Source: a virus
Length of the DNA: 23,936 bases
Direction: 5' to 3' (one strand)
Virus record (IMG/VR): IMGVR_UViG_3300042545_000294
Location: 1-23,936 of that record
This document shows, one piece after another, positions 6,155-22,791 of the stretch. A program made the position numbers and the translations under genes. Below the pieces are notes generated by a model that saw only the letters and a program-made list of their open reading frames with translations, was not told where the DNA came from and searched no databases. Each line of letters begins with the position of its first letter. Position 1 is the stretch's first letter.

Positions 6155-8005
6155 AATTTCGCAGTTACCACCGGCACACGCGGCTTGGTCCATCAACTTT
6201 GTGTTGTCGCTCATTTCTACAATATTTGCGACATTCAAGGCGTTAAGATTTGTAACGAGTTGCTCGTACTCCTGCTTTGTGATGCTCTCGAATGGCGTCT
6301 GTGCATAGCTTCCAAGGTCTTGAGGAAGGAACGAAAGCCCATTGAAGTGAGACTTGTTCTCCCACAACCACTCCCCAACTGCCGGCCACTCTGACTGCCC
6401 CATGCTAACGGTCGCACTCACGTTGTGTGTGTTGTCTCCGCTGCGGTGCCCCGGTGTGATCCAGTGCTGGTGGAAGTACTTCACGCGCTCCAAGAACTGA
6501 ATGGCAGTCTCTTCGCTTCTTGTGATCGCTCCAAGCGGTGCAGACTGCGGTACAGACACGACAGCTTGTTGCTGCGGCTTGAACACGTCGTCCTCCAACA
6601 TTTCTGGGTGGTACAAAGACAGGTATGTGTACATCGCCTCGTTCTTTCCTACACGCATTCTGCGGACGTAGTACTCGTCGTGCCATGCATGGATACCAGA
6701 AGAAGTACCCAACACCAAGGAAGAGGTGCCTGATGGCTTCACACAGGTAATGCGAGCCGCCTTGTTGATTCCGATAGCATCAGAGATGGTATCATTGGCG
6801 TAAATGGCTTGGTTCACGGCTTCCTGCAAGTTCATCTTCATCACCGCACCGCTAGCGATACCGGTCATTCCGATGCCCAACAATGCCTCTTTCTCTGTGG
6901 TCTCTTTCCAAATTGGGCGGAGGTAGTGAAAGTCTGTGTAAGACGCCTGCAAGGTTCCGATCACAGAGGCCCAGTACACGCGGTCGTTAAGGTCATCTTG
7001 GTCCTTGATGTCAGAGGCGTTGACCTCAACCAAGTTACAGAACTGGAACGGGTTCAAAGCGATTTCGGCGCAAGGATTGGTTCCCATGTTCTCGTTGTCA
7101 CTGAAGTAGAAGCCCGGCTCACCAGAGTTGCTCAGCTCAATTTTTTTCCAAAGCGACATGAACTCTTCTTTAGATACACTATCACGGTTTAGGATGGCCG
7201 AGTTGTTTGCACGTGCACGCTGTGGGTTAAGTTCCCACCAGTTGCCGAACTTAGACGTGAGCATCTCTTCATCGCTGATGTCAAATAAAGCGATCATGGC
7301 ACTGCGTCTGATACCACCACTCAACACCGCGTCAGCGATAAAGCACATGATGTCATGACACTCCAATGACGTAAGCATCTCCCCGTCTTGCTTGCGGTCA
7401 AGCACAGCCTGTATGTGCATCAAGCAGATCTTCAAAGGCTCTGGTCCCGGAGCTACACCACCAGAGGTAATCAAACGCTCGCCCTTTGGTCTTACAGCAC
7501 GGAAGTCAAACGCTGGGATAGTAGAGCTCAGACCTAAGTATCCCTTTATCAATACCTTCACTGCGTCAGCCCAGCCCTCGATAGAGTCGCCAACTAGGTA
7601 TCGGCGTGTCTTGATGGCCTTACTGATCGGTGGCAACTGGTCGATGTTGAAGCTCTGTACAGAGTATCCAACGCCGGTGCCACACAACAACAAGAACATT
7701 GTCTCAGAGAACGCACGGTAGTCGTTAACTGACAGGTAAGAGCAGTTGAACAGTCTGGTGTTGTTCACCTCGATGGGGCGGCCACCGAACTGCAACGAGC
7801 GCATAGACGGAAGGATCTTCTTGTCGTACACCAACTCGTAGGCACGCTCGATTGTAACCGACAGGTCAGGGAACTTTTTCAAGTGCATCTGCTTGTTGCG
7901 GTCAACAAGTTCTTTCCATGTCTCTCTTCTGTTCAGCTCTGGCACGAAGCGTGCGTACTTGGACCATACAACGATGTCCGATAGTATTTCTTTTTCTAGT
8001 TCCAT
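6149..8005 (-). CDS. nrdJ: Adenosylcobalamin-dependent (class II) ribonucleotide reductase
   Basis: A 618-residue monomeric-type enzyme that makes deoxyribonucleotides using a B12-generated thiyl radical. The key residues are all visible: C88 in LFNCSY and C323 (reducing pair), C312 in the NPCAEI motif (radical cysteine) with E314, and a C-terminal C610-x4-C615 that would re-reduce the active site. The 312-to-323 spacing and the C-x4-C tail match the Lactobacillus leichmannii enzyme, which is longer (739). No N-terminal ATP-cone is present, so activity control by dATP is unlikely by that route. It lies 3 nt after the MazG-like gene in the same operon. It implies the host can take up or make cobalamin. 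Confidence 0.92.
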   Translation of the reverse strand: MELEKEILSDIVVWSKYARFVPELNRRETWKELVDRNKQMHLKKFPDLSVTIERAYELVYDKKILPSMRSLQFGGRPIEVNNTRLFNCSYLSVNDYRAFSETMFLLLCGTGVGYSVQSFNIDQLPPISKAIKTRRYLVGDSIEGWADAVKVLIKGYLGLSSTIPAFDFRAVRPKGERLITSGGVAPGPEPLKICLMHIQAVLDRKQDGEMLTSLECHDIMCFIADAVLSGGIRRSAMIALFDISDEEMLTSKFGNWWELNPQRARANNSAILNRDSVSKEEFMSLWKKIELSNSGEPGFYFSDNENMGTNPCAEIALNPFQFCNLVEVNASDIKDQDDLNDRVYWASVIGTLQASYTDFHYLRPIWKETTEKEALLGIGMTGIASGAVMKMNLQEAVNQAIYANDTISDAIGINKAARITCVKPSGTSSLVLGTSSGIHAWHDEYYVRRMRVGKNEAMYTYLSLYHPEMLEDDVFKPQQQAVVSVPQSAPLGAITRSEETAIQFLERVKYFHQHWITPGHRSGDNTHNVSATVSMGQSEWPAVGEWLWENKSHFNGLSFLPQDLGSYAQTPFESITKQEYEQLVTNLNALNVANIVEMSDNTKLMDQAACAGGNCEIA

Positions 8006-20703: not shown

Positions 20704-21036
20704 ACATTAAAACCTTAAAACAAATATCATTTACAACCTATCGTTGAGGGCTAGTGATGGCTAGCCTTTGTGCATGGGTGGGGGTTTGAACCCCGTATAC
20801 CCGTTCATATCCCATGCTGTTCACCGCATCACCCCGTGGTGTTCCACCCACGATTCAAAGGACTGGGACTCAGTCCAGTGTGCGTACATAATTGGTCGGT
20901 CATTCGACCGCCAAACAATCGTCCAATATGTCAAAGAACGTGGCAGTACCATGTTGTTGATGTCAACAATATGGTCTGTCGCTCACCCCAAGTGATCCGC
21001 CTTGGCTTAGGCTGTGGGACTCACAGCGGTGGTTGA
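20704..21036 (-). ncRNA. Candidate structured noncoding RNA (~330 nt plus terminator)
   Basis: No credible protein gene is present. At least seven hairpins follow one another: GGCTAG/CTAGCC (20749-20766), GCATGGG/CCCATGC enclosing a T-arm-like loop (20772-20817), a bulged stem with GAA loop (about 20833-20852), GGACTG/CAGTCC (20860-20876), TTGG-CGGTC/GACCG-CCAA with a bulged T (20892-20914), a composite stem of about 16 bp (20942-20980) and GCTGTG/CACAGC (21011-21027). On the minus strand the block ends in an intrinsic terminator. Density and closeness of pairings exceed what coding DNA around it shows. The strand is inferred from the terminator. No known family recognised. Confidence 0.55.
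20769..20817 (-). ncRNA. tRNA-like acceptor/T-arm minihelix inside the structured RNA
   Basis: On the minus strand GCATGGG (20817-20811) pairs with CCCATGC (20778-20772). Between them are 15 nt and then a T-arm: GGGG, loop TTCAAAC (fits TTCRANN), CCCC, with the fifth pair a C-A mismatch. ACA follows the acceptor. There is no room for D and anticodon arms. It matches the plan of the element at 22422-22469. Confidence 0.45.
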
Positions 21037-21067
21037 TAGCAGAGAGGGGACTAACCCTGCTCTGCTA
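21037..21067. repeat. Long hairpin spanning the stop of the Api92/YubB-like gene
   Basis: TAGCAGAG (21037-21044) pairs with CTCTGCTA (21060-21067), and an inner AGGG/CCCT pair extends it to 12 bp with one bulged base. It covers the stop codon of the gene ending at 21051. No T-run follows, so it is more likely an mRNA 3'-end stem or the outermost stem of the noncoding RNA block. Confidence 0.5.
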
Positions 21068-22150: not shown

Positions 22151-22420
22151 TCATATTTCCCAGCCATTAGACCAGTAGCGTACAGCGTTTGCATATGTGC
22201 CCTTGGTACATCCTTTCAGTTCGTCGCGTGACGGGATGCGGTTGCCGTAGTAGTCCGTGAATGACTTCTTGGGTAGGAAGCAAATCCCCATCTCAAGTAA
22301 GCGCATTGCCTCACGTCCCATTGACCCTTCCATTGCCCATACTGAGCCGTTGTTGATGAGTCGTTGCATGTAGTCAACACCTGCTGACTTTTGTCTTGAG
22401 TAAATTGTTTGTATGTTCAT
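22151..22420 (-). CDS. Conserved small phage protein (89 aa)
   Basis: Begins MNIQTIYSRQKSAGVDYMQR and carries a GICFLPKKSFTDYYGNRIPS block and a DELKGCTKGTYANAVRYW end, a layout I recall from uncharacterised phage proteins. The start at 22420 is chosen because a much longer frame upstream runs through the tRNA-like element and into the DpnD-like gene with no family character. Its ATG comes one base after the CCA end of that element. Function unknown. Confidence 0.75.
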   Translation of the reverse strand: MNIQTIYSRQKSAGVDYMQRLINNGSVWAMEGSMGREAMRLLEMGICFLPKKSFTDYYGNRIPSRDELKGCTKGTYANAVRYWSNGWEI

Positions 22421-22421
22421 A

Positions 22422-22469
22422 TGGTTCCCAAGGTCAGACTCGAACTGACTGCATGCCATTGGCTTGGGA
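22422..22469 (-). ncRNA. tRNA-like acceptor/T-arm minihelix with encoded CCA (48 nt)
   Basis: Minus strand, 5' to 3': acceptor strand TCCCAAG (22469-22463), a 13-nt connector (22462-22450), T-arm GTCAG-TTCGAGT-CTGAC (22449-22433), acceptor strand CTTGGGA (22432-22426), discriminator A, then CCA (22424-22422). Both stems are perfect (7 and 5 bp) and the T-loop matches TTCRANN. The D and anticodon arms are absent: 13 nt replace the usual ~42. It starts 7 nt after a stop codon and ends 1 nt before the next ATG, so it fills the intercistronic space. It could be an RNase P/RNase Z processing site. A tRNA 3'-end attP remnant is the main alternative. Confidence 0.6.
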
Positions 22470-22476
22470 TGGGACG

Positions 22477-22791
22477 TTAGTCCTCGTCGCGTAGCATCAT
22501 CTTTGCTAACGCCTCGTGAAGTTCCTTTGGTACAAAGTCCTCGACGTGTCGGTACTCTTGAATCAGTCGCTGGATGTAAATCGAAAGGCTTTGAAGTTCC
22601 ACCGCCTCGTTCGGGCTGGGCTCCACCAACTCGACGTTGGTGTATGTCTCGATGATGTTGCACTGCTCCAACTCCTCGTGGTTCACCTTGTCGTCGTTGT
22701 CTCCAAGCCAATCGTGTACCTCTTGGATGCTCTCTGCATCTACTACCAACTCCGTGGCGTAGGTTCTGCTAATTACTACGTTGTATTTCAT
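22477..22791 (-). CDS. DpnD/PcfM-like N-terminal domain protein (104 aa)
   Basis: Starts MKYNVVISRTYATELVVDAES followed by an IQEVHDWLGD helix, the pattern of short DpnD/PcfM-like proteins (beta strand, VEA-type turn, helix). The C-terminal half is helical (LSIYIQRLIQEYRHVEDF). The biological role of this small family is unclear. ATGA overlap with the upstream gene; the stop lies 7 nt before the tRNA-like element. Confidence 0.65.
   Translation of the reverse strand: MKYNVVISRTYATELVVDAESIQEVHDWLGDNDDKVNHEELEQCNIIETYTNVELVEPSPNEAVELQSLSIYIQRLIQEYRHVEDFVPKELHEALAKMMLRDED

Follow-up and report, generated by a model that had tools for sequence, protein, structure and literature searches.

An apparently undescribed family of tRNA look-alikes without anticodon arms at phage gene junctions

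A half tRNA between two phage genes

The 48-nt ‘half tRNA’ lying between two genes of the virus record IMGVR_UViG_3300042545_000294 is genuine: it is one member of a family of tRNA look-alikes, seemingly not described before, that lack an anticodon arm. We analysed positions 1 to 23,936 of this record (23,936 nt; hereafter, the window). The preliminary description had placed the element correctly at 22422-22469; it lies on the minus strand, reading from 22469 to 22422, and is termed element 1 here. It comprises a 5′ acceptor strand TCCCAAG (22463-22469), a 13-nt linker CCAATGGCATGCA (22450-22462), a T-arm (22433-22449) with a 5-bp stem and a canonical 7-nt T-loop (GTCAG, 22449-22445; TTCGAGT, 22444-22438; CTGAC, 22437-22433), a 3′ acceptor strand CTTGGGA (22426-22432), and a tail of A (22425) and CCA (22424-22422) that is not conserved in relatives. 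All seven acceptor and all five T-stem pairs are Watson-Crick, as had been noted. The linker does stand in place of the D and anticodon arms, but it is not an arbitrary stretch: its AAUGG is an instance of a D-loop-like AANGG signature found family-wide.

On the same strand, the upstream gene (22477-22791; 104 aa, no known family) ends with a TAA (22479-22477) 7 nt 5′ of element 1, and the downstream gene (22151-22420; 89 aa, phrog_3908, of unknown function) begins with an ATG (22420-22418) 1 nt past the CCA—the spacing originally reported. ARAGORN returned no tRNA gene in the window and Rfam no match at element 1, whose folding energy is by itself unremarkable (z -1.5) and would have been insufficient to flag it. 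Scanned in full with a descriptor that allows linkers of 7-25 nt, the window yielded only element 1 and a second, previously named element (element 2, see below), even with a loose threshold. Across 400 first-order Markov copies of the window, hits reaching the score of element 1 occurred at a rate of 0.0025 per window, and none of the 400 copies contained two hits at the level of both real elements.

The element recurs at many gene junctions

To collect related loci without reference to the element, we relied on homology of the flanking genes alone, with the downstream protein yielding 34 IMG/VR loci. The homology-fetched loci contained more than 20 elements, as compared to 0.5 expected. The same architecture, with unrelated sequence, was present at this and many other junctions, with up to eight elements per phage. 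A DNA pattern search returned a further 62 stretches, some of them true tRNAs, and descriptor scanning of this pattern-found set together with the window gave 95 elements against 0.7 expected for the whole locus set; since the DNA pattern itself demanded part of the motif, the clean enrichment test is that on the homology-fetched loci. Unlike sequences were aligned structurally, via equal-length members and covariance models, one of which (R1) reported 122 copies in 80 sources. Whole records held up to eight copies, all on the same strand within each record listed. L108, a contig assigned by binning to a Lachnospiraceae genome, contained at least eight, the majority followed closely by a Shine-Dalgarno sequence and a start codon.

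An outer-stem-plus-flanks pattern leaving 22-44 free bases inside retrieved 23 distinct interiors, nearly all of which can form an inner hairpin at the position of the T-arm. The T-arm GCAAGG-TTCGATT-CCTTGC is nearly constant in L108 while its acceptors differ (eight different ones), and the reverse holds in L009, with a constant acceptor and differing T-stems.

Both stems covary

The preliminary description had proposed compensatory stem changes in related phages as a check, and these were found among 84 distinct sequences. Of all cells in the aligned stems, 97.7% were paired, and 12 of the 13 pairs had changed on both sides (7/7 in the acceptor, 5/6 in the T-stem). The covariation score was 0.765, against 0.138 after shuffling and at most 0.105 in slid-partner controls, and none of 500 shuffles matched the observed value; fitting the alignment to the model works in favour of the structure, whereas the descriptor scans and the outer-stem pattern are independent of that fit. 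With both acceptor strands present and covarying, rather than the 3′ half of a tRNA only, the elements are not attP remnants. The outermost pair was the loosest (unpaired in 15 of 81 cases), so the coaxial acceptor/T-stem helix measures 12-13 bp.

Family members span ~41-50 nt and lack an anticodon arm. A T-loop of the form UUCRANN closes a 5-bp stem stacked on a 7-bp acceptor, often extended to 6+7 bp in the family, and acceptor and T-stem are spaced by 10-15 nt in most copies. The linker contains GG in 81 of 88 elements, mostly as AUGGU, the kind of D-loop sequence that contacts the T-loop in tRNA. The (A)UGGU linker is placed to meet the UUCGAYU T-loop, probably forming a tRNA elbow. The bases most commonly following the acceptor are C, U, A/C and A; most elements carry no CCA and have a U after C73 in the 13-bp register. 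G.U pairs occupy 0.8-1.3% of family stem cells versus 8.5% in phage tRNAs, making them six to ten times rarer, which could reflect either a need for highly stable stems or a constraint at the DNA level.

Variant forms were seen as well. In subclass B, a 2-3-bp hairpin (AGC..GCGAA) replaces the D-loop and the T-loops are altered; in subclass C, the replacement is a CCAT....ATGG hairpin. Non-canonical T-loops in these two subclasses include TTCGTGA and AGCGAAA-like sequences, and both subclasses share phages and flanks with the main form (L091, L012, L018, L040, L060, L098, L141). Some copies possess a real D-arm, such as CGGC-TGGT-GCCG in L145, and element 2 of the window has a miniature one.

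Elements lie at stop codons and seem to follow the upstream gene

The filling of an intercistronic gap, first described for the window copy, is repeated across the family. Using plain ORF calls, and counting stops for ORFs of at least 40 aa, we found a stop codon within -15 to +14 nt of the element's 5′ end for 68 of 86 copies, compared with 9% of random places. An ORF start followed within 60 nt in 52 of the 86 (median 20 nt; 18% of random places), and stop and start were both so placed in 50% of copies, versus 2.5% of random places. In 23 of these 68 copies, the 5′ acceptor strand overlaps the stop codon; in the other 45, the stop lies outside it. A tRNA-like fold is present between cistrons, whose gene order suggests one shared transcript.

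Comparisons between phages point to an association with one flank. Where only the upstream gene was alike, median element identity was 0.91 (8 pairs); where only the downstream gene was alike, it was 0.5 (23 pairs, many of them involving a single query gene). Apparently, then, the element is linked to the upstream gene's 3′ end.

The CCA end and the near-leaderless start are private to the window copy

At the junction holding element 1, relatives have an upstream gene with 47-66% identity and a downstream gene with 92-98%. L006 and the window both read TCCCAAG...CTTGGGA here, while L003, L004 and L005 read AACCACG...CGTGGTT with a GAGGGG T-stem (44.8-59.3 bits in the covariance model). In L004 and L005, extra sequence with a new start codon separates the element from the 89-aa gene, and the element nevertheless stays at the upstream gene's stop. 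Searching the window with a model built without any window sequence (R2) ranked element 1 at the top of the window, with 17.2 bits and an E-value of 0.071 for 75 kb. Both window elements scored low in covariance models, so their family membership rests on structure and shared position.

Two features prominent in the preliminary description do not extend to the family. NCCA occurs in one of 88 elements, namely the window copy; the closest relative, L006, has GCAA. Likewise, in L006 a gap of 20 nt precedes the orthologous ATG, so the near-leaderless downstream start is no family trait either. At the position of ACCATATG in the window, L006 reads GCAAATTAATAACACAACATATG; from this sequence comparison, the window CCA probably arose by a deletion joining C to CATATG, which would make the near-leaderless start private to the window copy, too.

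Element 2 ends a conserved noncoding segment

The second element named in the preliminary description is present at 20769-20817 on the minus strand (reading 20817 to 20769). It has the acceptor GCATGGG/CCCATGC, a small D-arm-like ATAT-GAACGG-GTAT and the T-arm CGGGG-TTCAAAC-CCCCA, whose stem contains a single C-A mismatch; ACA replaces CCA. One of its acceptor pairs is T-A in the window and C-G in L006. Element 2 ends a conserved, RNA-like noncoding segment with several hairpins (window 20765-21060, minus strand; ~175-300 nt), which is common to the window, L003, L004, L005, L006 and L099, and for which Rfam returned no match. The best conserved part of this segment starts with GTTCTTTGACATATTGGA (20922-20939, minus strand), which we take to resemble a boxA antitermination signal of the kind used for untranslated phage RNA. 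The 18-mer GTTCTTTGACATATTGGA was found in more than 100 viral contigs (L150-L229; e.g., L150:5691, L152, L155, L200), and in four of six contigs inspected by eye it was followed by apparent tRNA genes.

Element 2 has a shortened linker in L004, L005 and L099 but retains its acceptor and T-loop there. Given this shortening, and since the boxA-like block elsewhere precedes apparent tRNA genes, element 2 may be a tRNA relict—or else part of the noncoding RNA—rather than an ordinary gene-junction element.

Separately, L006 harbours a larger tRNA-like sequence at 7858-7918 (TAGCAGA...GCAGG TTCGAGT CCTGC C TCTGCTA CCA), directly 5′ of an ATG. It has a D-arm-like part and a CCA and was missed by ARAGORN, and its acceptor could alternatively pair with a second TAGCAGA ~60 nt farther upstream.

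A candidate role in message punctuation and its alternatives

What might such elements do? We favour, with moderate confidence, mRNA punctuation, in which the element folds in a polycistronic transcript and is handled by host enzymes of tRNA end maturation. One copy would sit at the 3′ end of each cistron, at or just past the stop and ~20 nt before the next start, and fold within the polycistronic transcript; host RNase P would cut on its 5′ side and/or RNase Z on its 3′ side. The upstream message would thereby gain a defined 3′ end that is folded, and the downstream one a fresh 5′ terminus. Cleavage by either of these host enzymes appears to be the best mechanism, and the features that the family retains (acceptor, T-arm and D/T-loop elbow) would be those that tRNA end-processing enzymes read. 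The missing CCA and the U after C73 are presumably compatible with RNase Z, judged from the Bacillus subtilis enzyme. Phage-encoded RNase Z (TIGR02651) and TIGR03875, which we take to be HARP-like, were both absent from 19 phage records, some of which are fragments; host enzymes must therefore be meant. As for RNase P, an acceptor/T-stem/T-loop unit by itself is a good substrate of the bacterial enzyme, which cleaves it at the canonical position; T4 gene 32 mRNA, phage C4 RNA and polycistronic mRNAs are known substrates, too (PMC11143913). PMC12630138 likewise refers to phage and polycistronic RNAs as RNase P substrates.

Several observations strain the punctuation reading. Nearly all members lack the RCCA end that RNase P uses, the near-absence of G.U pairs is odd for a purely RNA-level constraint, and the hairpins and non-canonical T-loops of subclasses B and C count against it. 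Where the stop lies inside the acceptor (23/68), a canonical RNase P cut would remove it and give a non-stop upstream message. With about a third of located stops so placed, a 3′ cut would be favoured, or else cleavage restricted to times when no terminating ribosome keeps the stem open. A fuller picture—that DNA phages possess a tRNA-punctuation system, seen in crAss-related Bacteroidota phages and in the Lachnospiraceae-binned contig, of gene plus anticodon-less-tRNA units whose polycistronic message is cut into defined pieces by the host's tRNA-maturation enzymes, with the ribosome that terminates and opens the acceptor perhaps serving as a gate—is one we put forward tentatively, with somewhat more doubt than confidence.

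An alternative is a fold that is never cut and acts at the cistron end as a 3′ stability knot, as a spacer between terminating and initiating ribosomes, or by setting the coupling of adjacent genes. The tight stop-to-start placement, the stops inside the acceptor, the tracking of the upstream gene (0.91 versus 0.5) and the nearly G.U-free stems all agree with it. A plain hairpin would suffice for any of these tasks, however, and the retained T-loop and GG linker would go unexplained, which leads us to regard an uncut fold as rather unlikely.

The tracking of the upstream gene, the single copy per unit at the gene's 3′ end in constant orientation and the near-perfect Watson-Crick stems with few G.U pairs would likewise fit a hairpin acting as DNA, that is, a gene-cassette junction resembling integron attC, with gene and element moving as a unit. 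We hold this to be improbable: there is no constant core—acceptors all differ in L108, T-stems in L009—and the part that is constant, the tRNA T-loop and the D-loop signature, is meaningful in RNA.

That the elements are decayed phage tRNA genes or attP fragments with no present function is very improbable and, for the family as a whole, already contradicted. The position of element 2 downstream of a boxA-like block that directly precedes tRNA genes in several phage contigs, and the CCA-bearing, ARAGORN-negative sequence near it in L006, are what decay might leave behind; decay does not, however, yield compensatory change in both stems over 84 sequences or repeated copies at gene junctions, and an attP copy would comprise nothing but a tRNA's 3′ half. 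Intrinsic terminators, which the stable stems directly past stop codons might bring to mind, can be dismissed almost entirely, as the downstream sequence is typically CUCAUCAAA or CUAAA without a U-run and a gene starts ~20 nt on.

Comparison with known tRNA-like and gene-junction elements

The earlier statement that no phage element of this form had been described held: we found none in Rfam or the open-access literature, nor any counterpart there for multicopy, covarying tRNA mimics without anticodon arms that are fixed at phage stop codons. No element reaches the Rfam gathering threshold for tRNA (RF00005), the single match in L097 being a real tRNA elsewhere; with the anticodon arm absent as well, membership of this family was rejected. 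At relaxed E-values, Rfam gave only short T-arm matches to tmRNA (RF00023) in L054 (best E 0.0078, under the gathering score). A tmRNA identity was discarded since the elements, at 41-50 nt only, have no messenger part or tag and no CCA end.

Among systems sharing some of these features is the tRNA punctuation of mitochondria, in which RNase P and RNase Z cut tRNA-shaped folds located between the cistrons of a polycistronic RNA. The phage folds differ in lacking an anticodon arm, in measuring 41-50 nt, usually in lacking CCA, and in residing in phage operons, where cutting is a proposal. The tRNA-like domain of tmRNA (RF00023) similarly combines an acceptor and a T-arm with a near-stemless D-loop and no anticodon arm; the phage elements have no mRNA ring, tag or CCA. 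The 3′ tRNA-like structures of plant RNA viruses (TYMV type) are viral tRNA mimics, too, and RNase P can cut the TYMV type, but they stand at the genome's 3′ end and contain a pseudoknot, whereas the phage elements are multicopy, internal, free of pseudoknots and found in DNA phages. Integron attC sites likewise place an inverted repeat, in the same orientation, at every gene's 3′ end; unlike them, the phage elements have no constant core boxes, their conserved positions being tRNA loop bases. Finally, AT1-type RNase P model substrates (McClain and Altman; PMC11143913) consist of acceptor and T-arm and are synthetic; the phage elements add a GG-containing, D-loop-like linker and often a 13th pair, and mostly lack RCCA. 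The family thus misses a defining feature of every known kind tested, although it probably operates in a manner akin to tRNA punctuation.

Should cleavage take place, phages would be partitioning their messages in mitochondrial fashion, by means of host tRNA maturation. Without cleavage, the tRNA elbow found at so many junctions would have to affect ribosomes or RNases in some novel manner. In both cases, the elements offer a compact, testable system and reveal one class of tRNA-shaped RNA that tRNA finders miss.

Phages and hosts carrying the family

Scanning cultured relatives revealed no element above the scan threshold in the Flavobacterium elemo phage (first 50 kb) or the Maribacter phage Panino, and one variant element in the uncultured ctfjg026 (MW202828). 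Among host chromosomes, 250 Lachnospiraceae genomes gave one hit, which was the query's own contig, and 296 genomes from the phylum of G024 gave none, a weak absence given that only 20-24 candidates were scored per genome and one search had no positive control. Two element-bearing records (G007, G029) share terminase and portal families with Flavobacterium elemo, Cellulophaga phi38:1-like and crAss-like phages. Based on these matches, most hosts should be Bacteroidota. L043 and L108, in which a Shine-Dalgarno sequence follows the element, probably come from other hosts.
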